A stretch of DNA of 64,000 nt from Siderastrea radians (Eukaryota; Cnidaria; Anthozoa; Scleractinia; Rhizangiidae). This document shows, in pieces, positions 41,380 through 58,433 of the stretch (its first letter is position 1; each line of letters opens with the position of its first letter). The stretch is taken from positions 2,132,881 through 2,196,880 of the forward strand of contig OZ024887.1 in the NCBI GenBank assembly GCA_964017195.1, read 5' to 3'. Position numbers and translations under genes: made by a program. Under the pieces are notes generated by a model. It saw nothing but the letters and a program-made list of their open reading frames with translations, was not told where the DNA came from and ran no database searches.

Positions 41380-41438
41380 ATGGGACTTTCCCGATGAGTC
41401 ATCAGATTGTCATGTAATATCAGATGAACTTGTATTTG

Positions 41439-41516
41439 AAGTAAAGTTTGTCAGTAAAGTTTGGCAGTAAAGTTTGTCAGTAAAGTTTGTCAGTAAAGTT
41501 TGTCAGTAAAGTTTGT
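41439..41516. repeat. 13-bp tandem repeat inside the left Polinton end
   Basis: About six units of gtcagtaaagttt directly inside the left inverted repeat, with no counterpart at the right end. It lies between the end of the repeat and the 3' end of the polymerase gene. Confidence 0.8.
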
Positions 41517-41577
41517 AGTGAACAGAAAAGCAGAACTTGTATGGAGGCCAACACAGCTGTGGCGTGACGTCACATCT

Positions 41578-44500
41578 TCAGATTGCATAATGTCCGTAAG
41601 CGAAACTATTGATTCCATCGTTTGATATATATCTTTTGTCGTCAAAACAGCTGAGTGACACTTTATTAATTTCATAGCTTCCGAGTTGATGATTCATACT
41701 TCTGATTGTTTTCATGGTATGATGTATTTGTTTGTTATTAATTAATACATTTTTATAATCTTCATGTTTGATATTGTTCTTTATTATGTTCTTCTTGATT
41801 CCTTTGGCTGTTTTTCCTACTTTCTGGTTGTCTTTTATGTAACTATACATTTTTGATCGCAAACCGACAAATTCTGTGATTGGTATTCCAGCTGCTTCAT
41901 CCTTGAATTTACCAATTACCTTCTTGTTTGTCTTATCAAAATACGGAGAGTTTTCTGGGTATTCGCTGTTGTCAAATCGATCTTTGTCATTCCAAAAGTC
42001 TTGGTACACATCTTTGGTTTCAATCTCATATGTCAGACTGTCTGTGTCAGTGAATAGTAGTTTGGCTTTGCTTCCATACTTTTCTTTTATGTAGTTATAA
42101 TGAAAATCATACATTAATGTCTTGCTCAGATCAAGAATACACATACCTACATATGCTGGCCTGTTTAGAGTTAACGTTTCTTTGATCTTATGTACTGCTA
42201 CCAGATTTTCATTGAATATCTTACTGCTTACATAAGTTGGTTTGGAAGTCATTTTCAATAATTTCTTTTCATCTGTTATAAGTCGAACATCAACACGCTT
42301 TCTTATGTTTTCCATCGTTTTTCCAAATACTGAATTATTCATTAGCTTGAAGAAATCTTTTTCGAATGAATTTTTTGCTTGAGTACGTTTTTGTGTATTG
42401 AAGTCAATATATTGTTTGAGCCATGGAGACTGGTTGAATTTTAACACTCGGTGAACTTTCTTTAATTTCAAGCCAAGATCAAGATACAACTGCAGATTTC
42501 TATAGTGTAGAACATATTTTTCTTTGTCACATAAAGTAGGGATCAGTTTGTGTACTAGTCCTGTTGATATTTTGAACTTTTTCTGTATGTTCTTACAATA
42601 TTCAGACAACATATTATCAGTTACTTTCACTTTTTCTGACCCTAGAGGATAGTCATTATGAAGGTTATGTAACTCTTTGGGATATTCTAGATCAACTTCT
42701 AGTATCAATCCTTTATTGCTGTTTTCATTATACTGAGCTAAATTGATTTTATTAATTTGATTTTCTGTTAACCATTTGAAACTACCTGTAGGGAGGTATT
42801 GACTCATAGCCCAACCGTATAAATTATTAGCATCAAGATACATGATATACTTTGAGGGCGCCTTCTCATCGTATTCTTTCATGTACTTATTGTTTGCTTT
42901 TCCATATCGATTTGCTATATAAGATATACCACCTCTCATGCCTTTTTCAATGAATTGAAACATATCTATGTCTGTCATTAGTTCTAGTTGAATATTAGTC
43001 ATCTTTAACATAGCATCCCACGACAAACCAGGAGATGTGAAATAATGACAAGGATCAAGTTTGTAATACTGAAGACAGGTCTTACGGAAGTTTTCAAACA
43101 CGTCAGCTAATAGAAGTATATCAGACTTAAGATATAGATTGTGGTATTCACCCATCGTTTTTAATTGAAATGTATTCCACACTTTTTGAGCATGACTATA
43201 ATCCTCATCTGTTATATGCTCATTATTCAATATGCTGTAAAATTCTTCTTTAGTTGGCAATTCTGTTTTATTGAATTTCTCAAAACTGTCCATGTAATCA
43301 TACGGATAAACACCTTTTCGCGTCATAAGCTTGAATTTTTCTTTTTGGAATCTTTTGTTTGTATATTTTAAAGCTTCTGCTGGTAAGTTGCTAACTAATT
43401 TATCAAGACTAGAACTCATAAACTGGAAACTGTCAATGAATGTCAGATGGTTACCAAGCATGAACGCCATATATTTTTCCATATTGTTCGGTATGGCATT
43501 TATGTCCATTTTAATCTCTTTTCCGTTTTTGGTGTATGTATTATTCTTAACAATAGCTCCGATTTCTTGCATTATAAAATGGCTGTCATAACCTCTTAGA
43601 TTATGGAATATAACAGGAATTTTGATTTCTTCTGGATTTATTCTGAGTTTCAGATTGCATTCTTGGTGAGCAGAGCCTCTATATTTACCAGTTATATGAC
43701 AATGATCTCTGACGCGTATGTCTTTTTCTGTGTATTTTTTATCACAGATGTGGCATTCTTTTGCTTTTTCAAATTTCTCTTTATCATCTTTCGTCATTTT
43801 CAATGGCTTATCGAAATGCTTTTTCATTATATTCTTACAATATTTAACTTCTTTCAACATCTTTTCCATGAATTTGTAAACAGCCTTTTCATCTCTATAT
43901 AGTTGTATTGGTTTTGTATATTTGTCGTCATAACAACAAACTACTTTATAACCATATCCACAGTCTCTATGCCTTTGGTAAGCTTCAGTATATGATGACT
44001 CATTATTCTGTTGACATCCATGAATCTTCTCTGTTATAGCCTCAAAATCAGCATAGATAACAAATGGTACAGGCTGCTGCTTATGAAAATTATTGAATTT
44101 CAGTATGTTATTATCTTTGTCAGGCATTTTTATTGCTTGTTCGCCATTCACTTGAATGCAAATATCTTTATGATTGTTTAATACTCTTTCAGAACTGAAA
44201 CATTGTAGACAGTACATACAAAAGTGTTTCCTCTCTTTGTGTTTTGTTTGATTATACATGAACTTGTTGAAATCCTTTATGAGAACATAATGCTTGTTTT
44301 CATCTTTCGTTACTAGTAGTAGTTCCATATGATCTTCATACTTTTCTTTGGAAACATAGATGGGATACGGTTGTTTGTCTTCATATCCGAATACGTTTAT
44401 ATTGATACTGTTTTGCTTCTCAATTTTGTTGTAATGTTTGACATTGACTGGAAATTCAATTCCTGTGTAGTCTAACTTCTCAATATATGGTTTATCAACT

Positions 44501-45363
44501 TTTTTAATTCTTTGTGTGTCTTTATCTTGTGGATTCAAATGTCTTATGTGACACCATCTGAAACATTCATTATCCTCATTTTTCATGTTTATTAATCCCT
44601 TCATTCGAAGTTCGGAAGGTAGTTGGATATATGAGGATCCTTTCAATGGTTTGTATTTGACAATGTTGAGGTAATGGCTATCAACAGATTTAATTGTCCA
44701 ACCAGATCCTTCTGATATCCATTGGGCTATCTTATTCAGTATCTGTTGTTTTGATGATTGTAATGAATCAGCTATTTCCATTTGGTTGATTATTGTTTGA
44801 GGTGTACTATTGAAATATGCTGACTTTTCAACTATTTCATCACCTGAATTTTTTTCGAAAGTGACTTTCAATGTTTCAACGTATTTCAAGCCTTTCATTT
44901 CATTCAACAAAGCTATTACACGATGTTCTATAGCCTTTCTCGTGTTTTGCATTTGAGCTAAGGGGTCTTTATTGTTTTTGATGTTGATTTCATAAGACTT
45001 AGTGTAACCTTTTAAGGCTTTGTCTGTTTGTTCTATTTTGGTTCTTGGTGTTGGTATTGGTCTCCTTGGTTTGTATGTTCTTGACGCTGGAACTGGTTTA
45101 TAATTATCCCTGAATTCTGGAGGTGGAAGAATGATGTTTTCTTCATATTCTTTAGCCATCTGTTTGACACTCTTGCGAGGTGTTGGTACAGGTGGTCTTG
45201 GTTTATAAGTCCTTTGTGTTGGAACTGGTTTGGTATCATCTGCTAAGATGATTTCAGGCTTCCTTTTCTTTTGATTCAGAAGCAATTTGATAAGTTTTGA
45301 TTTGCTAAGTTTCTTCAAACTAGCTTTGTTCATTTCTATATAATTATATTCTTTTATTTCCAT
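41578..45363 (-). CDS. polB: Protein-primed DNA polymerase family B
   Basis: 1,261 residues. The N-terminal third has Pro-rich repeats (PTPR at about 60 and 104). A C2H2-like finger is near 382-402. The exonuclease motif YADFEAI is at 437-443, and an HNH/endonuclease VII-like Cys/His insert (CHIC to HQECN) at 537-570, then FHNLRGYDSHF at 586-596. Polymerase motif A YLDANNLYGWAMS is at 842-854, motif B region NSVFGKTMENI at 1010-1020 and motif C FTDTDSL at 1104-1110. It ends with the DDKRY...FAYGHY tail seen in Polinton polymerases. It would replicate the element from protein-primed ends. It starts with ATG at 45363 in a replication-type leader. Intact, with no missing catalytic residue. Confidence 0.95.
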   Translation of the reverse strand: MEIKEYNYIEMNKASLKKLSKSKLIKLLLNQKKRKPEIILADDTKPVPTQRTYKPRPPVPTPRKSVKQMAKEYEENIILPPPEFRDNYKPVPASRTYKPRRPIPTPRTKIEQTDKALKGYTKSYEINIKNNKDPLAQMQNTRKAIEHRVIALLNEMKGLKYVETLKVTFEKNSGDEIVEKSAYFNSTPQTIINQMEIADSLQSSKQQILNKIAQWISEGSGWTIKSVDSHYLNIVKYKPLKGSSYIQLPSELRMKGLINMKNEDNECFRWCHIRHLNPQDKDTQRIKKVDKPYIEKLDYTGIEFPVNVKHYNKIEKQNSININVFGYEDKQPYPIYVSKEKYEDHMELLLVTKDENKHYVLIKDFNKFMYNQTKHKERKHFCMYCLQCFSSERVLNNHKDICIQVNGEQAIKMPDKDNNILKFNNFHKQQPVPFVIYADFEAITEKIHGCQQNNESSYTEAYQRHRDCGYGYKVVCCYDDKYTKPIQLYRDEKAVYKFMEKMLKEVKYCKNIMKKHFDKPLKMTKDDKEKFEKAKECHICDKKYTEKDIRVRDHCHITGKYRGSAHQECNLKLRINPEEIKIPVIFHNLRGYDSHFIMQEIGAIVKNNTYTKNGKEIKMDINAIPNNMEKYMAFMLGNHLTFIDSFQFMSSSLDKLVSNLPAEALKYTNKRFQKEKFKLMTRKGVYPYDYMDSFEKFNKTELPTKEEFYSILNNEHITDEDYSHAQKVWNTFQLKTMGEYHNLYLKSDILLLADVFENFRKTCLQYYKLDPCHYFTSPGLSWDAMLKMTNIQLELMTDIDMFQFIEKGMRGGISYIANRYGKANNKYMKEYDEKAPSKYIMYLDANNLYGWAMSQYLPTGSFKWLTENQINKINLAQYNENSNKGLILEVDLEYPKELHNLHNDYPLGSEKVKVTDNMLSEYCKNIQKKFKISTGLVHKLIPTLCDKEKYVLHYRNLQLYLDLGLKLKKVHRVLKFNQSPWLKQYIDFNTQKRTQAKNSFEKDFFKLMNNSVFGKTMENIRKRVDVRLITDEKKLLKMTSKPTYVSSKIFNENLVAVHKIKETLTLNRPAYVGMCILDLSKTLMYDFHYNYIKEKYGSKAKLLFTDTDSLTYEIETKDVYQDFWNDKDRFDNSEYPENSPYFDKTNKKVIGKFKDEAAGIPITEFVGLRSKMYSYIKDNQKVGKTAKGIKKNIIKNNIKHEDYKNVLINNKQIHHTMKTIRSMNHQLGSYEINKVSLSCFDDKRYISNDGINSFAYGHYAI

Positions 45364-45493
45364 ATACTATATTATTGATATTCTTTTAAATAACTTTCAT
45401 TGCGCGTTTTAAATGGTCGAGAATTCAAATGATCCAAAACATAGGATCCCTTGAACTATATGAAAAAAGATTATCATGGATTTACTATCCGTT

Positions 45494-45718
45494 TTATTTC
45501 ATATTGATTTCATGGACATTTTTAATGTGCTTTTTTGCGTTCAAATGACACCATTTACCAGCTAGAGTATAATTACGACCAGTATTGCATATATCACAAT
45601 ACCATTCCTTATTTAGCATGTACTTCGATTTTTGTTGTTTTATAGCCTCCTTCTTCTCCTCTTCAGTTGAATACTTTTTTGGTCTACCTCGACCTCTCTT
45701 TACATTTTGATTTTCCAT
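45494..45718 (-). CDS. Small AT-hook and zinc-finger protein
   Basis: 74 residues: an AT-hook (RGRGRPKKY, 8-16), a charged helix, then a Cys/His cluster (C41, C44, H58, H64). Both parts suggest DNA binding. It lies just upstream of the polymerase gene on the same strand and shares its leader type (AATAATATATAG before ATGGAA), so it is probably a replication-phase regulator or accessory factor. Exact role unknown. Confidence 0.7.
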   Translation of the reverse strand: MENQNVKRGRGRPKKYSTEEEKKEAIKQQKSKYMLNKEWYCDICNTGRNYTLAGKWCHLNAKKHIKNVHEINMK

Positions 45719-45748
45719 ATATATATAATCTATATATTATTTTTCTCT

Positions 45749-46660
45749 TTATAAGTTTTTGTGTATGAATTTCAAATGATTGCTTAATGTTTCTGTTGAC
45801 TTGAATTTTCTGGAACAATGTTTGCATTTGATTCTTACACCCTGGAAATAAAGTATGATTTCTTTAATGATTTCATCATAATCGTTGCTGACTAATGTTT
45901 TGTAATTGTTGTTTTCATACTCTTGGAGCATCATCTTCTGTTCTTCTGAAAGCTTACCATTACCAGTTGGTGTTTTAAATTCGATTGCAAAAGCTGTGTA
46001 CTTCAAATGCATATTTCCAATGAATAGATCACAAGCTCCCTTCTGATAACCCATGTTGTATGATTTTATTCTCATGTTACCATTAATTTGGTTTTCACCT
46101 AATGTTGGGATTAGGATTGCTTTAGGATAATTGTTTCTAATAAAGTTGACTACCTTTTTATGTAAATCATATTCTGTGTTGATATTGAATGTCAGCATTT
46201 TGTATGGCCTGTTGTTGAATTCATACTTACCGGTTTTTCTGATTGATGGTAAAACCTTTTTTGTTACCCAACGTTTGAATTCTTTCGCTTTATCCATTTT
46301 GGATCTCAATATTAGGCTGTATAGTCCGGATTCATTTATATAAATAGTGTTTCCGGTGTTCCATGTTAAAGGTAACGATTCGTTACCCCTGGATTTGAGC
46401 CTCTTAAGTGAACATTTATCTTCAGAATCAACATGTTTGAAAATCGTGTTTCCGGTGTTCCCAGTCAGGGGGGACGAATCGTCCCCCCTGGATTTGAGCC
46501 TCTTACGTGAACATTTATCTTCAGAATCAACATGTTTGAAAATTGCTTTCTTGGTATCTTCATATCCCAAAATGTCGGCAACAGTTTTACCACGGAACCA
46601 TATGTCATCATCCTTTTTGATAATATTCAGTTTTTTTCCTTCATAAGTGAAAATTTCCAT
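45749..46660 (-). CDS. BRO-N, VRR-NUC-like nuclease and C2H2 finger protein
   Basis: 303 residues. Residues 1-145 form a BRO-N domain (WFRGKTVADILGY; INESGLYSLILRSK), a DNA-binding module of large DNA viruses. Residues 180-270 match a VRR-NUC/PD-(D/E)xK nuclease (CDLFIGN with D211, EFKTPTGNGKLSEEQ with E227 and K229). The C-terminus is a C2H2 finger (C279, C282, H295, H300). Residues 40-72 and 73-105 are an in-frame 33-residue duplication (99 bp) within BRO-N. A nuclease acting on element or host DNA is likely; target unknown. Confidence 0.75.
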   Translation of the reverse strand: MEIFTYEGKKLNIIKKDDDIWFRGKTVADILGYEDTKKAIFKHVDSEDKCSRKRLKSRGDDSSPLTGNTGNTIFKHVDSEDKCSLKRLKSRGNESLPLTWNTGNTIYINESGLYSLILRSKMDKAKEFKRWVTKKVLPSIRKTGKYEFNNRPYKMLTFNINTEYDLHKKVVNFIRNNYPKAILIPTLGENQINGNMRIKSYNMGYQKGACDLFIGNMHLKYTAFAIEFKTPTGNGKLSEEQKMMLQEYENNNYKTLVSNDYDEIIKEIILYFQGVRIKCKHCSRKFKSTETLSNHLKFIHKNL

Positions 46661-46804
46661 ATGTATCTGTTAATGCTATATATTATTTTCTGTTTAAATA
46701 AGATAGCCAGAAACAATTATATTTTTGGCTACCAAAAGCAAATAAACAGTATATACTGTATCAATCGATATAATATATGTTAGATAATATTTGCTTAAAT
46801 CATT

Positions 46805-47764
46805 TTATATATCCTTCAAGTCCTTGAACGGTATCCAACTGTTGAATTCATCACTATACCCCTTCCACTTAACCAAAGCTTGCTTCTTTTTATAATCCCT
46901 CCGAATGACTTTATCGATTCTGAATACCTCTTGTGTAGCTTTAAGCAATTCGGGTTCATAGAAACTCCCTTGAATGTCTTCATCTCTGAGATCCTTTAGT
47001 TTGTATGTGATTGGATTGGTGTATTGGATTTCATCAACTGTGAAAACTTCCTCAGACCAATTTGGTGTATAGCCCTTATCAAACACATTCCGTTTATACT
47101 TACTTATTCTAACCTTATCACCAACTTTGAATTTCGGTTTCTGTTTTGATGTTTCCATATCACCATATAGATTAAAGTAGACAGTTCCTTCATTCTTCTT
47201 TTTACTGGCTTCCGTTGGTGTCATCTTCGTGCTTGAATGTTTTGTATTATTGTATTCTTTCACTAATTTTGGTAACATATCAAGATACTTTGTATTACCT
47301 TTAACAGTAAACTGTTTCCACATCTTGGACTTGATTGTTCGATTCCATCGTTCACAAACTGACGACTTTTCCTCATTCTCAGTTGAGTACAAGGTTATTT
47401 TATTCTTATCAAGTAGTTCCTTAACATGTTTGTTGTAATACTCTTTGCCTTTGTCTGTCCATAAATATTTCGGTTTTCTACCTTCTTTAAGGATTGTTTT
47501 AAAAGCATTCATAACGGTTTCACCCTTTTTATCTTTTAATGGGACGATCCAACCGTATTTAGAGAATACATCTAAAACCATAAGAAGATATCTGTAGCCA
47601 GCGTTCCATCGACTGAACTTTTGCATCTCAACAATATCAGAGCACCATATCTCGTCAATGTGGTTTACAATAACACGCCGTCGAGTAAAATTTCGTTTTA
47701 TGGGCTTATGAAGCTCATCAGCTAATTTTTCTTGCCAGTTTTCTTCACTCGACGGCCTTTTACG
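46805..47764 (-). CDS. int: Retroviral-type integrase with chromodomain, no upstream ATG
   Basis: The frame is open from about 47800 to 46805. The catalytic Asp lies in the SDIVEM segment just before the first ATG (47626), so a protein starting there would lack it; the second Asp is in WTDKGKEYY and the Glu in CERWNRT. The C-terminus is a chromodomain (VKWKGYSDEFNSW). It would insert the element into chromosomes, with the chromodomain guiding it to chromatin. The full domain has no ATG. It lies in the -1 frame of the phospholipase gene, which overlaps it and carries A_AAA_AAC at 47770-47764. The start given here is the first codon after that site. Confidence 0.85.
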   Translation of the reverse strand, partial: RKRPSSEENWQEKLADELHKPIKRNFTRRRVIVNHIDEIWCSDIVEMQKFSRWNAGYRYLLMVLDVFSKYGWIVPLKDKKGETVMNAFKTILKEGRKPKYLWTDKGKEYYNKHVKELLDKNKITLYSTENEEKSSVCERWNRTIKSKMWKQFTVKGNTKYLDMLPKLVKEYNNTKHSSTKMTPTEASKKKNEGTVYFNLYGDMETSKQKPKFKVGDKVRISKYKRNVFDKGYTPNWSEEVFTVDEIQYTNPITYKLKDLRDEDIQGSFYEPELLKATQEVFRIDKVIRRDYKKKQALVKWKGYSDEFNSWIPFKDLKDI

Positions 47765-48381
47765 TTTTTTGTCCCAAGACCTAGTTTCTGCTTTGTGTTA
47801 ATCAAGAACCGAGCTGTTTGCCCCCATTTTGGCATCTGTCCATAAGGTATTCCATCCAATGACTTCACCATTTGTTTGTCACATTCACCTTTGTTTTTCC
47901 CCATATCATAACAAATATCGTGATGAGCTGCTATTTCATCCACTTTATTGTAAGGTTGTACATACCATTTAGTAACCTCACCAGTGTTTTTATCATATTC
48001 TAGCTGTTTTTCAAGAGGGTTATATGGTCCCATGTATTTATACTTTCCAGGAGTCCATCCAGCTTTTGGTTTTGGTATTTTCCCAATTAGTTTATGTATA
48101 TCAACACCAGCACCATCCAAATCCTTTCTGTCGGTTTTATACTTTCTATTTGGTCTGATTTTGGTTGATAATTGATCAAGAGCTTGACTTCCGACATTTT
48201 GAATCATTGGATTCAACTTATCCAGAGCATAATCGATAGCCTTTTTCTGCAGTTTTGGGTTTCTCAAGGCTTCTGATCCATAATATCTTCCCATTTCAAC
48301 TGCTTTTTTTCCAAGCCAAGGAATACCGTGGTGAATCAATAAATCAGCACCAGTCGATGCTACTGTATCTAGTACGTCCGC
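47722..48381 (-). CDS. Parvovirus-type phospholipase A2 protein, no ATG
   Basis: The clear part is about 205 residues from a TTG at 48339 to TAG at 47722; the frame is open from at least 48381. It has the calcium-binding loop YMGPYNPL (102-109 counted from the TTG) and the catalytic HD in KVDEIAAHHDICYD (134-145), as in parvoviral VP1 phospholipase A2, used to breach membranes during entry. An adenain-type cleavage motif LDGA|G occurs at 74-78. There is no ATG; the frame is -1 relative to the zinc-ribbon gene upstream. Its 3' end overlaps the integrase frame. Confidence 0.8.
   Translation of the reverse strand, partial: ADVLDTVASTGADLLIHHGIPWLGKKAVEMGRYYGSEALRNPKLQKKAIDYALDKLNPMIQNVGSQALDQLSTKIRPNRKYKTDRKDLDGAGVDIHKLIGKIPKPKAGWTPGKYKYMGPYNPLEKQLEYDKNTGEVTKWYVQPYNKVDEIAAHHDICYDMGKNKGECDKQMVKSLDGIPYGQMPKWGQTARFLINTKQKLGLGTKNVKGRRVKKTGKKN
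47764..47770 (-). promoter_or_regulatory. Candidate -1 frameshift site A_AAA_AAC (phospholipase to integrase)
   Basis: In the phospholipase frame the codons read ACA AAA AAC, giving the heptamer A_AAA_AAC used by several retroviruses. A -1 slip enters the integrase frame 46 codons before its first ATG. The -1 frame has a stop shortly upstream and no ATG in between. Spacer and downstream structure were not evaluated. Confidence 0.6.
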
Positions 48382-48554
48382 CCCTTTCGACGGGCTAACC
48401 CGTTTCCCGCCTGTTTGACGAATTTCGTCTTAGTGATTCCGCATTCAGAGCATTTGCATTTAAGCATAAGCCTCCCATTCTTAGCCTTTTCATATCTTTC
48501 ACTCCCAGGTACACATTCTGTGACCTTCTTTTGTTTCACGCAATAAGATTTCAT
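48369..48554 (-). CDS. Small zinc-ribbon protein
   Basis: 61 residues with ATG at 48554 and a structural-class leader (TCTAA 16 nt upstream). It starts MKSYCVKQKKVTEC and has a second Cys pair in CKCSECG, similar to the DUF5679-like zinc ribbons often encoded in Polintons. The basic C-terminus runs into the frameshift heptamer. It is probably the N-terminal part of a longer ribbon-phospholipase polyprotein made by frameshifting. Confidence 0.65.
   Translation of the reverse strand: MKSYCVKQKKVTECVPGSERYEKAKNGRLMLKCKCSECGITKTKFVKQAGNGLARRKGRTY
48381..48387 (-). promoter_or_regulatory. Candidate -1 frameshift site A_AAG_GGG (zinc ribbon to phospholipase)
   Basis: The codons CGA AAG GGG form an X_XXY_YYZ heptamer. 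After a -1 slip, the phospholipase frame follows directly. YYY = GGG is less usual in eukaryotic viruses than AAA or TTT, and the -1 frame is open for some distance upstream, so the slip point is less certain than at the other three junctions. Confidence 0.4.
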
Positions 48555-48565
48555 ATATAATATGA

Positions 48566-49105
48566 TTAGATATTTTTGAAATACCGTTCTAGAAACCTCT
48601 CATTCTTCATTGTATCATATATATCAAATACCTGAAGCAGATCAAAATATGATTTACCCTTATTCATCTCATTCAAAAAGTACAAACAGAAGTAACCGCA
48701 TGTTGTCGTCAGTAAATTTTGTATTTGATTGTTCTGATGAAGCAATGTTAAATTCTTTTTTCTCGCATGATTGACAATTTCTTGGAAGGGAGGCAAACCA
48801 AATGAATCAAAGTAATTGACGACGTTATCTTTCACATACGTGGATACCCAATGGCTACCGCTCATATATGATGGTTCAAGATTGTAAATGAATAGAGCCT
48901 GTTTATGATTGTGAGGAACATTTTCATCTCGAGACAGAACATCTTTGATTGGGATATTCAGATATTTACACCATTTTATTAAATCATAATTGCTTAATGG
49001 GACATTCTTATGGAATTTCGGTTTTACAATAGAATGTTTAGAAGAGGGACGTTTTTGAATGGTGAGTTCTTGCCCAATAGTAGACCGTTGCCCTTTTTGG
49101 GAGCT
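48566..49105 (-). CDS. pro: Adenain-like cysteine protease, no upstream ATG
   Basis: The catalytic set of the adenain/Ulp1 fold is visible: His in MSGSHWVS, Asp in NYFDSFG, and Gln then Cys in the NQIQNLLTTTCGYFCLYF segment. The conserved N-terminal part (LSNYDLIKWCKYL, then ALFIYNLEP) lies upstream of the only early ATG (48865), so the domain needs an earlier start. None exists: the frame is open to a TAA at 49114-49112. It is -1 to the core-type gene, which reads A_AAA_AAA just after that stop. It probably processes capsid precursors. Confidence 0.85.
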   Translation of the reverse strand, partial: SSQKGQRSTIGQELTIQKRPSSKHSIVKPKFHKNVPLSNYDLIKWCKYLNIPIKDVLSRDENVPHNHKQALFIYNLEPSYMSGSHWVSTYVKDNVVNYFDSFGLPPFQEIVNHARKKNLTLLHQNNQIQNLLTTTCGYFCLYFLNEMNKGKSYFDLLQVFDIYDTMKNERFLERYFKNI

Positions 49106-49866
49106 TTTTTTTTAGTCCCCATACCTAATGTTTGATCAGGCCAATTTCCATAAAAAGGTGGAGTTCTATACATTGGGACTAACAAACCACCATCTTGATT
49201 ATCATTGGTTAGTTGTGATATAGATCTGGGTGGTCTTTGTTTCGGTTGACCCATCTGAGGGGCACCTTTACCAGTCATCTTCTTTATTGCCTCAATAGCT
49301 AAAGGGACTCCAATTGATGCAAGAAGAGTACCTAAGAAACCACCTGTTTGTACTTTAGCCGGTTTTATATGAACACCAGAGCCTGTTTGTAGAGCATTTA
49401 ATATATCCTTCTTTTGTTTGGTTGTCAAAAGATGTTTATATGCTATCAACTGATCGATTTTATTTTGTGGTATGAGAAACCCACCGGTTTGAACACCTTT
49501 TCCGGATATCTTCTTAACAATCTGAGATGCTCCTTCACTAGCTGCTCCAGCTAAAGCCGACAATCCAAGAGTCTTAGCAATCGTTGGAGCAAAAGTTCTT
49601 CCAAGTGTTAGAACTGTAGACAGAAGAGATCCACCTAATTGCTTTCGAATGTTTGTTTTAGAAAGTTTAATGTCCATTCCCTTTTTCAATTTTCTATTTT
49701 TTTCCAATCGCTTAACTATATTCTGAGGTACATACAGAGTATCATTCCCAGATAGAGAGTCCTTCGTGAGCCTTAGAACTATTGTTTCTCTTTTATGATA
49801 CGCGTTACTAAGATTCTTTTTCTGGTTTGGTGATAAACTAACTTTAATTTCGTATAGTTGTGTCAT
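49024..49866 (-). CDS. Core or minor capsid-type protein with cleavage motifs
   Basis: 280 residues. A basic N-terminal domain is followed by a small hydrophobic Ala/Gly-rich helix (about 80-118), two adenain-type motifs ISGK|G (120-124) and MTGK|G (197-201), a second hydrophobic stretch (178-195), a Pro-rich region and a terminal GKNSPFKNVPLLNILL. This layout resembles adenoviral pVI or core precursors and proteins next to the protease in other Polintons. It probably acts inside the virion. ATG at 49866 follows a TCTAAC leader. Its 3' end overlaps the protease frame. Confidence 0.65.
   Translation of the reverse strand: MTQLYEIKVSLSPNQKKNLSNAYHKRETIVLRLTKDSLSGNDTLYVPQNIVKRLEKNRKLKKGMDIKLSKTNIRKQLGGSLLSTVLTLGRTFAPTIAKTLGLSALAGAASEGASQIVKKISGKGVQTGGFLIPQNKIDQLIAYKHLLTTKQKKDILNALQTGSGVHIKPAKVQTGGFLGTLLASIGVPLAIEAIKKMTGKGAPQMGQPKQRPPRSISQLTNDNQDGGLLVPMYRTPPFYGNWPDQTLGMGTKKKAPKKGNGLLLGKNSPFKNVPLLNILL
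49105..49111 (-). promoter_or_regulatory. Candidate -1 frameshift site A_AAA_AAA_G (core protein to protease)
   Basis: Three AAA codons (residues 252-254 of the core-type protein) are followed by G. The -1 frame has TAA directly before this site and stays open through the protease. The same arrangement occurs at 52826-52832. The nine-base A run could also be a homopolymer sequencing error. Confidence 0.6.
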
Positions 49867-49925
49867 ATAATATATGTTAGATAAATTCTCTTTTAAAAAA
49901 CATATTCAATGTAAAACTTATTTAT

Positions 49926-51215
49926 TTAAACTATCATCAATTCGTTTCCAACTGTCTTTACTACAACCTCACTCTCGTAAAATACGATGCTATGAGCTCG
50001 GACGTTTGCTGTCGGGGCTACATTGAGACGATAATGGAGAATCAACTGTTTAGGATCTCTCGTCACTACCTCTTTCTGATATGACAAATCGAAATACAAT
50101 AATCCATACAAACTAGTGAAATTGGATACATTAAGCTGTGTTCCTGAATTGTAATCGTTCTTACGAAATGCATATGACATGAGATCATTGAATATCCTGA
50201 TTTTTGAATCTGCATCATATTCGAGCTCTGGGTAAAATGTATTGTTTCCGTATTCTAAACGGCAGCTTGAGAGAGAGCTATTAGCGTCAGCGGCATTCAA
50301 CTTGAAAGTGTCAAACAAATACGGACTCCTCTCTGCTTCATCAGTATTTGGTGCGTCTGTCCTCTGGAGATATATAAAAACATGTTTAACGTCATCGATA
50401 GCTGGACTGATTTGAAACATATTCTGAATAGCTCTGGTATTTGCTGACTGATTGTAGAGATCTCGCATATATGTCCAGGTTGTTGGCTTGAGAAACTCTG
50501 AAACGAAATTACTATACATGCTGTCTTTTGGGATTAATCTTGGGAGCCAAAGATACAATCTCTTTACTACAACACGACCAGGGTCTGTGCCATTTGCCAT
50601 GTGAATCAGTTCACTGTCTTCGTTAAATGTAAGTTCAATTGTGAGCTGCATCGGAGGCAACATTTTTCTTTCTAATTCTTGAAAAAAGCTGTATCTGTTT
50701 AAGGGAAGCATCTCATTAATACTTTTAGCTCCCCCACCACCGTTGTTTTGTGCTGCTTGGGTTAAAATACGACGGGACTCAAAACCTGTGTTTGTATTTG
50801 CTGTTGTATCATCAGTATCAAGATACCAGAACGAATTCTTCCCAACAGATCTACTAAAATCATCACTGTATTCAAGGAGATTTTTAACATTCGTAATTCT
50901 ATGCAAATTATCACTCTCGTATACTATTTTACCAGACGATTTAATAACCATATGTCTGATTAGACTGTGAGATCCGTTTATCATAGTGATGCGATCCGCT
51001 TGAGCATATCCAGCACCATCTGCCCTTTTTTGAAGCTCTTTAGTTACTTCGAAATACCCATTAAAAAAATCGAACATAGTCGACCTATCGTTGATAGTGA
51101 ATCTGTAACCTGTCTTTTTCTGGCTTTGATTGTTAGCAGGTTGCTCAATGACATTATCCAAATGGAAACGAACGTATTCGTATCGTTGTAGATTTTCATT
51201 TGTTCTGAAACTCAT
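49926..51215 (-). CDS. mcp: Major capsid protein, double jelly-roll
   Basis: 429 residues, rich in beta-strand-type segments. Recognisable stretches are the N-terminal YEYVRFHLDN, the RKMLPPMQLTIELTF strand, the central LYLWLPRLIPKDSMY, and a C-terminus with LYGLLYFDLSYQKE, LILHYRLN and NELMIV. These match the capsid protein described for Polintons and adintoviruses, related to adenovirus hexon. It is at the short end of the family. ATG at 51215 sits 18 nt after TCTAAAC and directly follows ATATAA. No adenain-type motif was noticed in it. Confidence 0.85.
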   Translation of the reverse strand: MSFRTNENLQRYEYVRFHLDNVIEQPANNQSQKKTGYRFTINDRSTMFDFFNGYFEVTKELQKRADGAGYAQADRITMINGSHSLIRHMVIKSSGKIVYESDNLHRITNVKNLLEYSDDFSRSVGKNSFWYLDTDDTTANTNTGFESRRILTQAAQNNGGGGAKSINEMLPLNRYSFFQELERKMLPPMQLTIELTFNEDSELIHMANGTDPGRVVVKRLYLWLPRLIPKDSMYSNFVSEFLKPTTWTYMRDLYNQSANTRAIQNMFQISPAIDDVKHVFIYLQRTDAPNTDEAERSPYLFDTFKLNAADANSSLSSCRLEYGNNTFYPELEYDADSKIRIFNDLMSYAFRKNDYNSGTQLNVSNFTSLYGLLYFDLSYQKEVVTRDPKQLILHYRLNVAPTANVRAHSIVFYESEVVVKTVGNELMIV

Positions 51216-51233
51216 TTATATGAGTAGTTTAGA
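51216..51233 (-). promoter_or_regulatory. Structural-class promoter motif of the capsid gene
   Basis: TCTAAACTACTCATATAA abuts the ATG. The same TCTAAAC with 18-nt spacing and ATATAA end precedes the penton-like gene, and a close variant precedes the 117-residue gene. It resembles TAAATG-type late promoters of poxviruses. Confidence 0.55.
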
Positions 51234-51246
51234 TAAAATTCACTTT

Positions 51247-51600
51247 TTAATATCCAGTACCAGATATAAGTCTATTCAGAATTGTGTTGTAATCTTCTTC
51301 TTGTTTTGGTTTAGTAGGTTTGGTTGGTTTCATTGATTGTTTAGTTGAACCATGTAATTTTCTCATAATAAGCTCTCCGCTTTTTTCAGCTGCTTTTCTT
51401 CCAAGTTTGTCTCCAGCATGTGAAATACCAGATTCAAGCGCTTTTTTGGCAAAAGGTTTTAAAACCATTTCTGGAACTTTACTTAACACCCTTCCAACTG
51501 GTTTGAATATGTTATCAACAATAATCCCAGATCCTTTATGCTTATACACAAAACGACCTAGTTTCGGGTGATAAATTCGCTTGTATTCATACGACGACAT
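51247..51600 (-). CDS. Small basic protein with C-terminal cleavage motif
   Basis: 117 residues, basic, with an amphipathic middle (about 45-80) and a Pro/Lys-rich linker. It ends LISGTGY, so residues 112-116 match the adenain motif IxGx|G two residues from the end. Probably a DNA-binding or capsid-cementing virion component. It is encoded next to the capsid gene with a structural-class leader (TCTAAC 18 nt before the ATG). Function inferred from position and composition only. Confidence 0.6.
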   Translation of the reverse strand: MSSYEYKRIYHPKLGRFVYKHKGSGIIVDNIFKPVGRVLSKVPEMVLKPFAKKALESGISHAGDKLGRKAAEKSGELIMRKLHGSTKQSMKPTKPTKPKQEEDYNTILNRLISGTGY

Positions 51601-51618
51601 ATATAACTATTAGTTAGA
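51601..51618 (-). promoter_or_regulatory. Structural-class promoter motif of the 117-residue gene
   Basis: TCTAACTAATAGTTATAT abuts the ATG at 51600; same spacing as at the capsid and penton-like genes. Confidence 0.5.
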
Positions 51619-52380
51619 TTAATCTCTCTTCTCTCTTAAAATCAAACTGAATGAAGTGTCACTATGATTAAGATCTATGATTCTTCGTTTACCGTCGGTG
51701 ATATAAATCCGAATTTTATTAATCGTATTTTTATTACACGGGTTGTACTGTACTCGTCGAGGCTCTTGTGTGAAACTATAACTCGGTGTCAAAGTACTAG
51801 TACTGAAACTATATATAATATCTGACTCTTCACCATCGACAAGACTATCACTTATCAAATCACAATGAACATTCAATATTTCTCTGTCTTGTGAGAGATT
51901 AGGAATGTAATCTCCAACATTTACACTACTTGTTAGAATCTTTTTATTGAAACCAATAAGATCATTAAAATTACTTTTAGTGAGATCTAATCTGTAATTT
52001 GAGGCTAGTGTTATTATTGTCCTGAATACAGTATCGTTAAACTCCAGAGTGATTGGATATTGAGGGTTTGATGAAGTCCCTGTTTTTGTTTTTTCTTTGA
52101 TTAAATTGTCAAAATCAATGTAATTCCATACTCCAGGGTTGAATATAATTTCCGTCCAATTAGTACCACTATCAGATGAATATCTTATTTTCTGATTATC
52201 AAGTTCCCTTGTCACATTAAACCAAGTAAATGACATCGAAATGATTCGGTCTAGGCCTATTTCATATTGTCTGTTTGAATCTAGTATTATCGGATTACTG
52301 TATTTGATTGTGAAATCCGATGGTTTATTACCACTTATACCTTTGACGATATGACTGGATAATGCAAGTTGTCTATTCAT
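51619..52380 (-). CDS. Penton-like (minor capsid) protein
   Basis: 253 residues with a beta-rich pattern and no hydrophobic membrane segment. Features include the N-terminal MNRQLALSSHIVKG, DSNRQYEIGLDRII and SMSFTWFNV, and a C-terminal ILREKRD. Size, position between capsid and smaller virion genes, and sequence type fit the single jelly-roll penton described for Polintons. ATG at 52380 follows TCTAAAC at exactly the capsid-gene spacing. Confidence 0.65.
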   Translation of the reverse strand: MNRQLALSSHIVKGISGNKPSDFTIKYSNPIILDSNRQYEIGLDRIISMSFTWFNVTRELDNQKIRYSSDSGTNWTEIIFNPGVWNYIDFDNLIKEKTKTGTSSNPQYPITLEFNDTVFRTIITLASNYRLDLTKSNFNDLIGFNKKILTSSVNVGDYIPNLSQDREILNVHCDLISDSLVDGEESDIIYSFSTSTLTPSYSFTQEPRRVQYNPCNKNTINKIRIYITDGKRRIIDLNHSDTSFSLILREKRD

Positions 52381-52398
52381 TTATATGATTAGTTTAGA
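52381..52398 (-). promoter_or_regulatory. Structural-class promoter motif of the penton-like gene
   Basis: TCTAAACTAATCATATAA directly before the ATG, nearly identical to the capsid-gene motif. Confidence 0.55.
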
Positions 52399-52826
52399 CT
52401 AAAATAGTTTTTGTATATTTTGTTGTATTGTGGCTTATTGAGTATTGAATTTCTCAACAAGATGTCAAGAAGAGCGACGCCTGTGTTTCTTAGTTCGATG
52501 CTATTGTTACCAGCAACCTTTGATCCGATAATCAGTTCAAGTTTTTTCATCATTTCTGTTGGATTATTGAAAAACATTACCTGTCCACCTCTTTTTGTTT
52601 TTTTCTTCAAACCAGACCCTTTAATATTTTTCAGTTTTTGATTGTTGTAATTGATATAATCAGTAAGAACCTTTCTTGTATCTTGAATAATTTTTCTTCG
52701 ATATTGAGACTCAGCTTCAGTCATTAAACCACTATTTAATTTTTTAGTGATATCACTCCAATAACCATTGAGTTTCCAACGTTTCTCTTTAACATTTTTC
52801 AAGATTGTTTTCAGATAAGATTTACT
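52389..52826 (-). CDS. 137-residue Polinton protein, no ATG
   Basis: The frame is open from 52832 to 52389. A start at the TTG at 52802 would give 137 residues; the first ATG is 26 codons later, after the KRWKLNGYW segment. It has a basic linker with the adenain-type motif IKGS|G (60-64 from the TTG), then a GGQVMFFNNPTEMMKKLEL helical domain. Family unknown; probably a virion component. It is -1 relative to the gene upstream, which carries A_AAA_AAA at 52832-52826. Confidence 0.6.
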   Translation of the reverse strand, partial: SKSYLKTILKNVKEKRWKLNGYWSDITKKLNSGLMTEAESQYRRKIIQDTRKVLTDYINYNNQKLKNIKGSGLKKKTKRGGQVMFFNNPTEMMKKLELIIGSKVAGNNSIELRNTGVALLDILLRNSILNKPQYNKIYKNYFSLN

Positions 52827-53386
52827 TTTTTTTCATTCATATCTTCTTGTTGAAGTCGTAATTCAATATCATCATAGTTAGGAATTTGAAGTTCATCTAA
52901 AGCTTGATTTATTCTATCCTCCTCAAGGATTTCGTAATCTGGTACTTCTTCTTCTTCTTCGTATTCAGGTGGAAGATCTTCAGGTTCATACATGTATTCT
53001 GGGTCAATATGAATTCGTTTTTCACCTGATGCTAAATCCTTAAGGACATCTTCATAACTTGGAGGTTTTGGAACCAATTGTTTGTCATTTTGTGGTATAA
53101 CTTGATCACCAAATAGATCTTCCAATCCATAATCAGGCACTTCATCATCAATAGCTATTCCATAATCTGGAACAGGTTGCTTTTTCTTTGGTAATCTTCT
53201 CAACGGTGCTTTTGGGGCTGTAAGTTCCTTTAACTCAGATGTTATAGGTTTGAAAAGTTTCTCTGCCTCGACTTCACCCATTTGATCAGATATCGTTTTT
53301 TGTTTTATTGTCTCTCTTACTGTGTTAATCTTTTTACCAAGCTCGGATCGTTTCTCAGCTATTTCTTTCCATTTGAGTAAACTCAT
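52811..53386 (-). CDS. Acidic protein with PPxY late-domain motifs
   Basis: 191 residues, rich in Glu, Asp and Pro. It carries PPSY (108-111) and PPEY (139-142), plus three VPDY repeats (72, 83, 148). PPxY motifs recruit NEDD4-type ubiquitin ligases and the ESCRT machinery, and adenoviral pVI and many enveloped viruses use them. A role in trafficking, budding or entry is therefore plausible. Starts with ATG at 53386, sharing a 116-bp divergent promoter region with the ATPase gene. The 3' end overlaps the next frame at a slippery heptamer. Confidence 0.6.
   Translation of the reverse strand: MSLLKWKEIAEKRSELGKKINTVRETIKQKTISDQMGEVEAEKLFKPITSELKELTAPKAPLRRLPKKKQPVPDYGIAIDDEVPDYGLEDLFGDQVIPQNDKQLVPKPPSYEDVLKDLASGEKRIHIDPEYMYEPEDLPPEYEEEEEVPDYEILEEDRINQALDELQIPNYDDIELRLQQEDMNEKKVNLI
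52826..52832 (-). promoter_or_regulatory. Candidate -1 frameshift site A_AAA_AAA_G (191-residue gene to 137-residue gene)
   Basis: The upstream frame reads GAA AAA AAA G close to its stop. The -1 frame has TGA at 52835-52833, immediately before the heptamer, and is open from there to 52389. The layout is the same as at the core/protease junction. Confidence 0.6.
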
Positions 53387-53502
53387 TATATCATTTGTTT
53401 ACATAAAATTTCGTATTTTGTTCGGAAAAATTAGGGTTATTATATATAAAAACGCTCGCATAGCGTGTCGTCATGCAATAAAATTGTATAACATAATATC
53501 AT
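53387..53502. promoter_or_regulatory. Divergent promoter region between the PPxY gene and the ATPase gene
   Basis: This 116-bp AT-rich gap is the only place where minus- and plus-strand Polinton genes diverge. Leader motifs TGTAAAC (minus) and TGTATAAC (plus) precede the two ATGs at about 17-18 nt, variants of the TCTAAAC class. Confidence 0.45.
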
Positions 53503-54144
53503 ATGAAGATTCAAAATTACGACATTCAAGATGATGAAAACAACGATTTTGTTCAATTAAAGAGTTTCATGCCAAACCGATGTTTCAGGATGCTTATTTG
53601 TGCTCCCTCTGGTGGTGGCAAGACTAACCTTTTGCTTGATATGATATATAGACTATTGTTCTTTGACAAGATATACCTTTATGCTCGAAATCTCCAACAA
53701 AGCAAATATAAGCATCTGTTGAAATCTCTTGAACCAATATCAAAAGAGGTCGGTTATGACGTGATAGAAGCAAGTAACGATGAAATCATCCCTCTGACAG
53801 ATTTGTCTGATGAAAACCAAAAATTAATCATATTTGATGACTATTTGAATACAGGTAAGAAAAATGACGAACGGATACGAGACTACTTCACCAATTCAAG
53901 AAATAAAAATTGTTGTTGTATATATTTGAGTCAAAGCTATTACGGAACCGATAAAACAATAAGACTGAATAGTTCACATTTTTGTGTTTTTGATTTTCCT
54001 TCTATAAACGAGCAATCCATGATTTGCCGAGAATTGGGTGTTAACAAAGAGTATTACCAAAAGGCCACTAAGGATCCATATAGTTTTCTGTATGTTGATA
54101 AGGTCAAAAAAAAGGTAGCCCGAAATTTCGATGAAAGAATCTAA
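53503..54144 (+). CDS. atp: Packaging ATPase, A32/FtsK-HerA type
   Basis: 213 residues. Walker A APSGGGKT is at 34-41, Walker B LIIFDD at 108-113 and a sensor-type YLSQSYY at 141-147, in the order found in the A32-like genome-packaging ATPases of Polintons, virophages and large DNA viruses. It would drive packaging of the linear genome into capsids. Length is normal for the Polinton form. ATG at 53503 in a structural-class leader; the fibre-like gene starts 12 bp after its stop. Confidence 0.9.
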   Translation: MKIQNYDIQDDENNDFVQLKSFMPNRCFRMLICAPSGGGKTNLLLDMIYRLLFFDKIYLYARNLQQSKYKHLLKSLEPISKEVGYDVIEASNDEIIPLTDLSDENQKLIIFDDYLNTGKKNDERIRDYFTNSRNKNCCCIYLSQSYYGTDKTIRLNSSHFCVFDFPSINEQSMICRELGVNKEYYQKATKDPYSFLYVDKVKKKVARNFDERI

Positions 54145-54155
54145 ACCATTAATAT

Positions 54156-56261
54156 ATGAGTTATACTAACGGTATCCTTAATCATGATGATTCTCAAGGA
54201 CTAGGTAAGGTAGGTACAAGAGGTTTACCTGGTATTGGATTTAAATTAGATGCTAACAATGATTATGATATGCAGAATAAAAAACTGGTTAATGTAAAAC
54301 AGGGAACTAATAATAATGATGTGGTCACAAAAAGTCAGTTAGATAGTGAAATAGCCAAGATTCCAAGTGTGGATACATCTAAATTCATGCTAAAAGCAGG
54401 TGATACGATGACAGGGTCACTCATTGTCCCAAAAGACAATTATCCAGTTCATGGTAATCTCAACAAGGTTATCAGTTATGAATCGCAAAGAGAGATATTC
54501 TTGTCAAAGAAGGAAGGAGGCCGAATGGAGCAACATATTGACATGGGTGGTTCAAACATCGTAAATCTGAAATCACCAACTGCTTCTAATCACGCTAGTA
54601 ATAAGGCGTATGTCGACAATTCAGTAAAAAATAAAGCAGACCTTTCAAAGACAGCAACACAAACATTTCAAGGTAGAGTACAGGTACCTGATTTCAATTC
54701 AGGGCAACATAATGGATCAGATATCGTGAACCTCCGTTATATTGATGGTACATTTCTGAATAAAAAAACGGGAGGTACTCTTAGCAATCCGATATCATTT
54801 CTCAGTTCTCTACCAAATAATCAAAAACAGATTCACAGCCTCGGGACACCTCAATACAATAGTAGTGCTGCTAACAAACAATACGTTGACAATTCAGTAA
54901 AAAATAAAGCAGACCTTTCAAAGACAACAACACAAACATTTCAGGGAAGAATACAAGTACCAGATTTTGATCCATCCTCTCACTCAGAATCAGATATTGT
55001 CAATCTCAAAGATATTAACGACGCCTTTTTGAATAAAAACAAAGGAGGTGTCATGAAAAATCCTATCACATTTCTATCTTCATTACTAAATAATCAGAAA
55101 CAGATTAACAACCTCGGCACACCTCAATACACTAGCAGTGCTGCTAATAAGAGCTACGTTGACGAAACATTGGCACAATCTCATATCGATTCCAGCAACA
55201 AAAAGAATGCATTTAAGTACCTCCTTGATGCAGACGAGAGCTCCAGTGAGAATAATATAGTGGTTATTGGCATCTCTGATTTCGCACAAAGCCCTCACAA
55301 GAATAAATTAGCTTACAAAGTCGGACTGCAAAAAAATCCTAATATCAATGATTATCAATCGAAAATCGGATTCAGTCTATATCCTCTCAGTATCGGCAAA
55401 TTCACATCGGTCTTGGAATATTATCCACTAGGGTCACATACCAACATCCAACTATCCGCTCAGGCTACCACAGCTAATATTCACAAAACAATCCAAAAGA
55501 GCTTCTCAGATCACGTAAAGATTCTCGTACAATTCAATAATGGAAGTAGGGATGCCCTTGATTACATCTATTTCAACCTACATGGAAGCTCAACATTATC
55601 CTCACCACAGGCTTTTCTCATCATTTATGGTGTGAAAGATTGGCAAGACACTGTCAATCCAGAAGTGTACGACTATGATCACAACAACCATGTAATGAGA
55701 ATCGTTAAGTATACAAATAAGATTATTTCCAATATTGCATGGTTAACAGATGGTCCTTGGCAAGACCTATCCAACTATTATGTGAATTTCAATTACCCAA
55801 CTGTTGGCAATATCGGGAAACTGGTAACATATCTACAGGTAAGTAATGATAAAAACGGAGGCAATCTTTGGTGTCGTTGGGTTGCCAATATTATCAACCC
55901 AGTAACAAAGAATGTGGAAAATACCCGTATAATACAAGTCAATACAACTAGCTCCATTTTATTAGGAAATAGATTCCGGTCTGGTTTTGGTATTCAGTTG
56001 GCTCCAGACTATGAAAACATCGTTACACTCTCAAACGCTTCTTTTTTCACAGTTGTAGACAAAAACAAGCTTCATAAATTTCAATTACAGGTAAGAGTAA
56101 CAGATGGGGGGACATTCACAGTGAATTCCATCGCTAATAATATAAATGCAGATTGGAACAGTTACACTGTGAGCATAATTGAGGTTCAAGAGATAGCTGG
56201 TTTAAAATTGGACACAAATTCAGGTCTCCCAGCTGATGTCATAACTTTCACCAGTGAATAA
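54156..56261 (+). CDS. Fibre-like protein with collagen-type start and tandem repeats
   Basis: 701 residues. Residues 16-28 include a short Gly-x-x stretch (GTRGLPGIG). Next come repeats of about 91 residues (from about 149 and 240), each with YVDNSVKNKADLSKT and NPISFLSS or NPITFLSS type segments, resembling phage tail-fibre repeats of the VTKSQLD/NKAYVD type. Residues 350-701 form a separate beta-rich domain without a recognised family. It is probably a receptor-binding spike. ATG follows TCTAAAC at 16 nt. The repeats are nearly identical at DNA level in places, suggesting recent duplication or conversion. Confidence 0.55.
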   Translation: MSYTNGILNHDDSQGLGKVGTRGLPGIGFKLDANNDYDMQNKKLVNVKQGTNNNDVVTKSQLDSEIAKIPSVDTSKFMLKAGDTMTGSLIVPKDNYPVHGNLNKVISYESQREIFLSKKEGGRMEQHIDMGGSNIVNLKSPTASNHASNKAYVDNSVKNKADLSKTATQTFQGRVQVPDFNSGQHNGSDIVNLRYIDGTFLNKKTGGTLSNPISFLSSLPNNQKQIHSLGTPQYNSSAANKQYVDNSVKNKADLSKTTTQTFQGRIQVPDFDPSSHSESDIVNLKDINDAFLNKNKGGVMKNPITFLSSLLNNQKQINNLGTPQYTSSAANKSYVDETLAQSHIDSSNKKNAFKYLLDADESSSENNIVVIGISDFAQSPHKNKLAYKVGLQKNPNINDYQSKIGFSLYPLSIGKFTSVLEYYPLGSHTNIQLSAQATTANIHKTIQKSFSDHVKILVQFNNGSRDALDYIYFNLHGSSTLSSPQAFLIIYGVKDWQDTVNPEVYDYDHNNHVMRIVKYTNKIISNIAWLTDGPWQDLSNYYVNFNYPTVGNIGKLVTYLQVSNDKNGGNLWCRWVANIINPVTKNVENTRIIQVNTTSSILLGNRFRSGFGIQLAPDYENIVTLSNASFFTVVDKNKLHKFQLQVRVTDGGTFTVNSIANNINADWNSYTVSIIEVQEIAGLKLDTNSGLPADVITFTSE

Positions 56262-56290
56262 AAATTATCTATCAATATAATATATATTCA

Positions 56291-57329: not shown

Positions 57330-57366
57330 TCTATACTATTATATGATATTATATTTTTAAGTAATA

Positions 57367-58179: not shown

Positions 58180-58433
58180 GAAAACAACAAATTTTAAAAA
58201 TTCTCCTGCCGAGCCTGAGGAAAAAACCGCGGTCAGTTTTCAGTCCATTTTTGGAACGATCATTTTTTTTCTTGTTTAATATTCCAAGAGGTCGAATTAT
58301 TCCCATTCTGCCTATTCTCATTTCAGCAGAGACCAAGAAAACGCGCCTTAAAATTATTACATCACTTCTTTAAATGAAATCAAAGTTAAAGAATTTTGAC
58401 AGAATGTGTGATTGGTTTGGTATATACATTAGC

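Follow-up and report, generated by a model that had tools for sequence, protein, structure and literature searches.

A Polinton in the genome of the scleractinian Siderastrea radians very probably expresses its phospholipase A2 (PLA2) and its integrase through two serial -1 programmed ribosomal frameshifts, as judged from the sequences of the element and its relatives. The element lies in a stretch of 64,000 nucleotides (contig C1, positions 2132881-2196880 of an 804.8-Mb assembly of 439 contigs), referred to below as the window. An initial annotation had read four of its gene junctions as frameshift sites. Our comparison strongly supports two of these as putative -1 sites, one between a zinc-ribbon protein (ZNR) and PLA2 and one between PLA2 and the integrase (INT); a third, in front of the protease, is a plausible slip site, and the fourth is an artefact of a broken copy. 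The arrangement described for the window itself was confirmed: each of the four open reading frames (ORFs) lies in the -1 frame of the ORF upstream, none has an ATG close to where it opens, the heptamers named occur as stated, and at two sites (52832 and 49111) a stop immediately precedes the opening of the -1 frame.

The window was compared with 87 loci (86 places, because L070 and L044 overlap), all from the same 805-Mb genome: 20 copies of 6.9 kb (L009-L028), 20 of 2.0 kb (L029-L048), 20 of 1.4 kb (L049-L068), 12 loci found by searching with PLA2 (L069-L080) and 15 shorter pieces, of 501 nt each, that represent more distant integrase matches (L081-L095). Loci were taken from the top and the bottom of the match lists, not at random, and long identical stretches are common to L018/L019, L010/L011 and L055/L062. 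The window and 72 loci form a set of 73 rows, to which the 15 further pieces are added to give 88. The genome search with the integrase scored 141 places of 2827 candidates; at 130 of them the open frame measures 324-363 aa (two are longer, at 519 and 547 aa, and nine shorter), which by our reading of the search table is the integrase frame extending through the slip region and not through PLA2.

At the junction between ZNR and PLA2, the -1 relation was found in 65 of 73 rows. L036 is the only clear in-frame fusion; for the in-frame or +1 entries of L021, L035, L044, L045, L069 and L070 the matches stop short of the junction. All but one of the 65 rows (64/65) carry the heptamer G_GGA_AAC in phase with ZNR. 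Among 34 rows the latest -1 opening lies 6 nt before this heptamer and the earliest stop of the upstream (0) frame directly behind it (L010, L011), and the shift is therefore confined to 13 nt, from -6 to +7 nt of G_GGA_AAC. A G+C-rich hairpin follows at 6 nt, within the 5-9 nt expected at frameshift sites, with a stability of -8.3 kcal/mol in the window and -10.2 to -16.4 kcal/mol in 22 other distinct sequences. Compared with synonymous recodings that keep the PLA2 protein, the hairpin gave z scores of -4 to -6 in eight other copies and -2.3 in the window; 0-1 of 1000 recodings were as stable in 8 of the 9 copies tested, and 19 of 1000 in the window. Furthermore, 95.7% of its cells are paired, versus 38-58% in slid controls. 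L010 and L044 spell the hairpin differently, with a two-sided GC to CG change at one pair, and 2 of 500 shuffles reached the covariation score; the covariation is thin. We also rejected the slip site first proposed for this junction, A_AAG_GGG (48387), which is not conserved (it is missing in L010, L011, L015, L020 and others) and lies 21 nt downstream of G_GGA_AAC. As a separate observation, L021 and L040 retain the ZNR slip cassette with G_GGA_AAC though the sequence behind it is unrelated, a case of domain exchange.

The junction between PLA2 and the integrase shows the -1 relation in 63 of 73 rows and in 12 of the 15 further pieces (75/88). Every one of these 75 rows has a canonical in-phase heptamer: A_AAA_AAC in 67, U_UUA_AAC in five and A_AAA_AAA in three. 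The -1 frame opens 12 nt before the heptamer in L026 and L039 and a stop stands directly behind it in L085 and L091-L093, therefore limiting the shift to 19 nt (-12 to +7 nt of the heptamer). Most copies contain a 14-bp stem 7 nt past the heptamer, again within 5-9 nt; the window fold has a z score of -2.9 relative to dinucleotide shuffles, of which 3 of 200 were as stable. Over 25 distinct sequences 96.6% of 350 stem cells are paired, as opposed to 27-53% in slid controls, and synonymous recoding gave z scores of -1.3 to -3.8 in 10 copies. Heptamer and stem can be replaced: L081, L083 and L087 have A_AAA_AAA and another hairpin in place of the 14-bp stem, and L089, with an integrase start of a different sequence type, retains the heptamer and has its own hairpin. 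Pairwise identity just past the heptamer is 0.96-0.97 with codon positions alike, versus 0.79 at PLA2 third positions. Taken together, the sequence features of this junction make it a convincing candidate for a -1 programmed frameshift, and the ZNR to PLA2 junction is an equally convincing one. Two further observations concern this region: the other integrase N-terminus behind the retained PLA2 cassette of L089 amounts to domain exchange, and in L013 the PLA2 and integrase parts lie ~4.5 kb apart, which suggests an insertion inside PLA2.

Both the heptamers and the open -1 frames exceed chance. The 13 ATG genes of the element hold 20 canonical in-phase heptamers (Y = A/T, Z not G) in 4205 codons, a count that includes G_GGA_AAC of the zinc ribbon itself, and A_AAA_AAC occurs in none of the 4205. 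Among distinct -1 sequences the overlap is open in the -1 frame in 22/23 at the protease, 21/21 at PLA2 and 13/13 at the integrase, when 0-frame synonymous recoding predicts 9%, 22% and 8%, respectively; rows with other overlap lengths (7 at ZNR to PLA2, 18 at PLA2 to integrase) were excluded from this test. The confinement of the shifts also bears on splicing, which might join the ORFs in a eukaryotic host. With frames open on both sides of the 13-nt and 19-nt intervals no intron-sized segment is left, and splicing would leave the heptamers unexplained; no search aimed at splice sites was made, and we consider this explanation extremely improbable.

PLA2 and the integrase could instead be started independently, by leaky scanning, re-initiation or non-AUG initiation, with the frame relation incidental. 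An ATGA overlap of the PLA2 stop supplies an integrase ATG in some copies (L021, L023, L024, L084 and L085), which permits re-initiation. In addition, GAATGY codons (Glu-Cys) of the zinc ribbon hold an out-of-frame ATG, from which the frame is open into PLA2 in some database proteins; in many copies, the window included, it does not stay open from there to the heptamer. The PLA2 ORF of the window has no ATG ahead of its conserved N-terminal region, its first ATG falling within the conserved domain, and the conserved WQEKLADELHKP...CSD stretch precedes the first integrase ATG (47626), which likewise falls within a conserved domain. Integrases listed with MSEEENWQ or MSNYDDW at their start probably reflect TTG starts assigned by gene-finding software for bacteria (cf. 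L089 and P0145). Independent initiation would leave unexplained why a conserved heptamer and hairpin stand at fixed spacing and why A_AAA_AAC and U_UUA_AAC replace one another, and we regard it as unlikely. The leaders point in part the same way as the annotation had supposed: the 13 other ORFs of the element begin with ATG, and TCTAA is absent within 60 nt of any of the four -1-frame openings; the motif was found within 45 nt upstream of the ATG in only 6 of the 13. In these six it stands ~15-20 nt before the ATG (upstream of 48554, 49866, 51215, 51600, 52380 and 54156), and we take it to resemble the TCTA late promoter of mavirus and CroV.

Several observations weigh against reading the two junctions as frameshift sites. 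The DNA comparisons are between copies in one genome, which share ancestry, are not independent and are in part near-identical, and relatives outside this genome are known as proteins only. At the ZNR to PLA2 junction, L025 is the sole -1 row that lacks G_GGA_AAC, the window's hairpin is weakened (the 69-nt fold has a z score of only -1.0), a two-sided change was seen at only one of seven pairs (82 of 500 shuffles reach that pair number), and identity around the site is not raised (0.83-0.84). At the PLA2 to integrase junction the relation is +1 in seven, in frame in two and split in one of the 73 rows, and +1 in two and in frame in one of the 15 pieces; the matches of L042, L046, L072 and L075, entered as +1, stop short of the junction, and +1 rows are read here as decay. 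The 14-bp stem varies one-sidedly only, and its column-shuffle control is uninformative (500/500); 10 of the 25 distinct sequences have a mismatch at the same pair, and the stems of L018 and L021 barely beat recodings (45/400 and 28/400, respectively). One alignment (A4) excludes L025, in which an unrelated sequence follows the heptamer. Finally, conservation at the PLA2 to integrase site is matched by that of the PLA2 N-terminal part (0.97-0.99), and the ATG overlaps noted above belong on this side as well.

The protease probably follows the same logic as PLA2 and the integrase, by way of an A-run without a stem. Over the window and 40 copies, the protease is in the -1 frame of the upstream 280-aa gene in 32 of 41 rows, in frame in five, +1 in two and missing in two. 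In 20 rows, the window among them, A_AAG_GG[ACT] stands 70 nt ahead of the stop of the 0 frame, and in L042 its place is taken by A_AAA_AAA; in 11 of the 32 -1 rows the piece begins inside the junction and the heptamer is not judgeable. An apparent lack of heptamer in 10 rows was rejected, those pieces being cut inside the junction. The -1 relation and the 0-frame tail persist in copies with virion genes from a different family: L025 and L026 encode four virion-type proteins at 32-49% identity, and L041, L042 and L046 have the same junction form. These five loci combine protease-junction sequence of the other family with the same integrase, an instance of module exchange between Polinton lineages.

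It is chiefly here that transcriptional slippage has to be weighed, in which the polymerase adds or drops an A and mRNAs in both frames result. The junction is rich in A-runs, the window copy has no downstream stem (fold z +1.1), and run length differs between near-identical copies (L010, L011, L023 and L024), giving -1, +1 and in-frame versions. However, G_GGA_AAC and U_UUA_AAC contain no long run, and the placement of A_AAG_GG[ACT] at a fixed 70 nt before the stop, in 20 rows and two virion-gene families, would fit a translational site too. We consider transcriptional slippage a possible explanation that falls somewhat short of an even chance; slippage of the ribosome or of the polymerase at an A-run without a stem is plausible for the protease on this evidence. 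Among 120 listed homologs of the 280-aa protein (of 3411), 84 end in the 0-frame tail, 28 are in-frame protease fusions and eight are other forms, and a fused 280-aa/protease product is likely made at some frequency.

The fourth junction (52832) behaved differently. The 191-aa and 137-aa pieces form one ORF in 15 of 15 informative copies (5 of 20 lack a piece), and no stable fold was found downstream in the window (z +0.5). We rejected it as a frameshift site: the frame relation is not kept, and the window copy is broken, or misread, at this point. The 191-aa protein has PPxY-like motifs (PPSY and PPEY), which we take to be reminiscent of viral late domains. Decay by single-base indels, or assembly error, fits 52832, and the in-frame 280-aa/protease fusions counted above show that A-runs do change. 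As a general explanation it was rejected on the -1 relation common to 65/73 and 75/88 rows at the ZNR to PLA2 and PLA2 to integrase junctions; in addition, the terminal inverted repeats (TIRs) of the window copy match at 99-100% and its target duplication is intact, and we regard decay as very unlikely. An earlier argument, that four shifts in one direction speak against random indels, did not hold in general, because the 137-aa break chanced to look like -1 and single copies show +1 or in-frame relations at other junctions. Alignment of related elements upheld the -1 relation and a heptamer at PLA2 and the integrase, and upheld neither the 52832 relation nor the 48387 heptamer; folding likewise gave stems at those two junctions and, in the window copy, none at the protease or at 52832.

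Proteins from databases bear on the same question. The C-terminal anchor is present in 108 of the 120 PLA2 homologs listed, and the tail behind it contains KN in 86, LN in 17 and neither in five, as expected of AAA AAC and UUA AAC in homologs that are known as proteins only. By anchors set here, 24 of 120 listed integrase homologs (of 7778) are in-frame PLA2-integrase ORFs, and two such ORFs, P0127 and P0184, include the zinc-ribbon family as well. Zinc ribbon and PLA2 are fused in frame in at least nine of the PLA2 homologs listed (P0003, P0036, P0043, P0045, P0048, P0050, P0055, P0075 and P0078). One fusion comes from Oculina patagonica (P0191), and others may include this genome's kin. The domain order and the fusion are therefore real in relatives, which supports fusion products at the frameshifted junctions; frameshifting would be the natural way to fusion where the frames differ. 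Viral-contig scans with PLA2, with a PLA2 alignment and with an integrase alignment found no relative.

We propose that a ribosome starting at the zinc-ribbon ATG would meet G_GGA_AAC, with a stable hairpin 6 nt further on. The majority would then terminate within 0-42 nt, and a minority would slip back one base into PLA2. At the PLA2 end, A_AAA_AAC, replaced in some copies by U_UUA_AAC or A_AAA_AAA, would repeat the choice ahead of a stem: most ribosomes would stop soon, and a minority would slip and add the integrase. The products would be ZNR, ZNR-PLA2 and ZNR-PLA2-integrase in falling amounts, like Gag, Gag-Pro and Gag-Pro-Pol. We infer the slippage itself, its efficiency and the role of the fusion as carrier of the enzymes into the particle. 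The double shift from zinc ribbon to phospholipase to integrase had been suggested by the initial annotation, and the comparison strengthens it while moving the first slip site from A_AAG_GGG to G_GGA_AAC.

Table 1. Coordinates of the Polinton and of the features at its overlapping gene junctions (positions in the window).
Feature	Position	Strand	Basis or remark
Whole Polinton element	40457..58179		TIR beginning AGTAGT; inverted repeats, ends read
Integrase ORF (rve core and chromodomain), -1 frame of PLA2	46805..47797	-	PF00665 E 1.4e-11; PF00385 E 2.3e-7
3' arm of 14-bp stem, within integrase coding region	47677..47690	-	folding, synonymous recoding
PLA2-domain ORF, -1 frame of ZNR	47722..48429	-	PF08398 E 1.2e-7; stop-to-stop frame
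5' arm of 14-bp stem, 7 nt past heptamer	47743..47756	-	folding, pairing over copies
Slippery heptamer A_AAA_AAC (0-frame codons AAA AAC)	47764..47770	-	in-phase conservation
ZNR, 61 aa, 0 frame upstream of first shift	48369..48554	-	translation; weak DUF5679 match
7-bp hairpin, 6 nt past G_GGA_AAC	48376..48395	-	folding; substitution weakens window copy
Slippery heptamer G_GGA_AAC (0-frame codons GGA AAC)	48402..48408	-	in-phase conservation
Adenain-like protease ORF, -1 frame of 280-aa gene	48566..49111	-	PF00770 match at E 0.014, weak and below cut-off
280-aa virion-type gene upstream of protease	49024..49866	-	conserved 0-frame tail GLLLGKNSPFKN.PLLNILL
A-run, A_AAA_AAA (49111-49105) and A_AAG_GGC (49096-49090), possible slip or slippage site	49090..49111	-	
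137-aa ORF, second part of the ORF begun by the 191-aa protein, out of frame only in window copy	52389..52832	-	
191-aa PPxY protein, first part of ORF continuous with 137-aa ORF elsewhere	52811..53386	-	

The element carries the marks of a Polinton/Maverick: TIRs of 99-100% complementarity, a flanking 6-bp target duplication (GAAAAC at 40451-40456 and 58180-58185), and a retroviral-type integrase with chromodomain together with a packaging ATPase (PF00665, PF00385 and PF04665, all above cut-off). The PLA2-like domain is likewise above the Pfam cut-off, and the ATPase is of A32-like type; the zinc ribbon (PF18930, DUF5679, E 3.2e-4, below the gathering score) and the protease are below. The TIRs (40456-41379 and 57367-58180) contain tandem units of ~110 nt, by repeat-pair spacing, with frames that are open but repetitive. 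A 1261-aa ORF (41578-45363), by its motifs a putative protein-primed PolB, has as its sole Pfam match PF02945, of endonuclease VII type (residues 518-572, E 0.01). The 429-aa and 253-aa ORFs, presumably capsid genes, gave no Pfam match at E 0.1. A 186-aa ORF (56769-57329) matches the poxvirus late transcription factor VLTF3 (PF04947, 26.4 bits, cut-off 25), which would fit TCTAA as a late promoter motif. Finally, a 303-aa ORF (45749-46660) has a BRO-N domain (PF02498, E 1.1e-27) and, below cut-off, weak similarity to VRR-NUC; a BRO-N-VRR-NUC fusion is described as new in the polinton-like virus of PMC12721341.

It had been supposed that frameshifting of this kind was undescribed in Polintons, which is nearly right. 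In the excerpts retrieved from the Polinton, Maverick, virophage and adintovirus literature, we found nothing on frameshifting of PLA2 or integrase. The mentions of frameshifts in the passages seen of PMC10120064, PMC8097293, PMC12567637, PMC12721341, PMC12945077, PMC6431247, PMC8363768, PMC6905037, PMC11253617 and PMC2871265 concern mutations, search settings or other viruses, and those of PMC8547959 contain none. One preprint (PMC11071296), in the portion available, proposes hypothetical slippery sites for the penton genes of adintoviruses and suggests a like arrangement for hexon-adenain fusions. These cases concern the same group of viruses and transposons and likewise invoke a -1 shift for virion genes, including a protease fusion; they are KnotInFrame predictions given in a few sentences, and within that portion neither PLA2 nor the integrase is assigned a site, nor is a comparative test made.

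If our reading is true, it would explain how a membrane-breaching enzyme and an integrase are loaded in controlled amounts into Polinton particles, whose virions are inferred and hardly seen. Gene finders can miss or truncate the PLA2, protease and integrase of Polintons, and the slip cassettes are short and testable. Compared with Polintons and Mavericks generally, this element has the usual TIRs, 6-bp target duplication, rve-chromodomain integrase, A32-like packaging ATPase and adenain-like protease; it differs in that PLA2 and the integrase are not free-standing and stand in serial -1 overlap with the zinc-ribbon ORF. Insertion sequences of the IS3 family make their OrfAB transposase by a -1 frameshift, and as proposed here an rve-type enzyme of a DNA element is reached through a slip at an A-rich heptamer, although those elements are bacterial and small, with one shift and no phospholipase.

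The closest parallel is the double -1 frameshifting of retroviral gag-pro-pol, of the MMTV and HTLV type. Both systems would have two serial -1 shifts, heptamers of the same kind, a downstream stem and minor C-terminal extensions that contain the integrase. In contrast to retroviruses, the Polinton is a DNA element with no reverse transcriptase among its Pfam matches, the domains joined are a zinc ribbon, PLA2 and integrase, and the protease belongs to a separate gene pair. If true, this would be convergence with retroviruses in an element that has their integrase fold and not their replication. More broadly, Polintons may have evolved a gag-pro-pol-like plan independently, with a zinc-ribbon carrier and graded, minor additions of PLA2 and then integrase by which both would reach the particle; a third slip, of ribosome or polymerase, would join the protease to a different virion protein, the cassettes would be portable and survive domain exchange, and lineages would switch between frameshifted and fused forms in either direction. 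We see the case for and against this wider scheme as evenly balanced.

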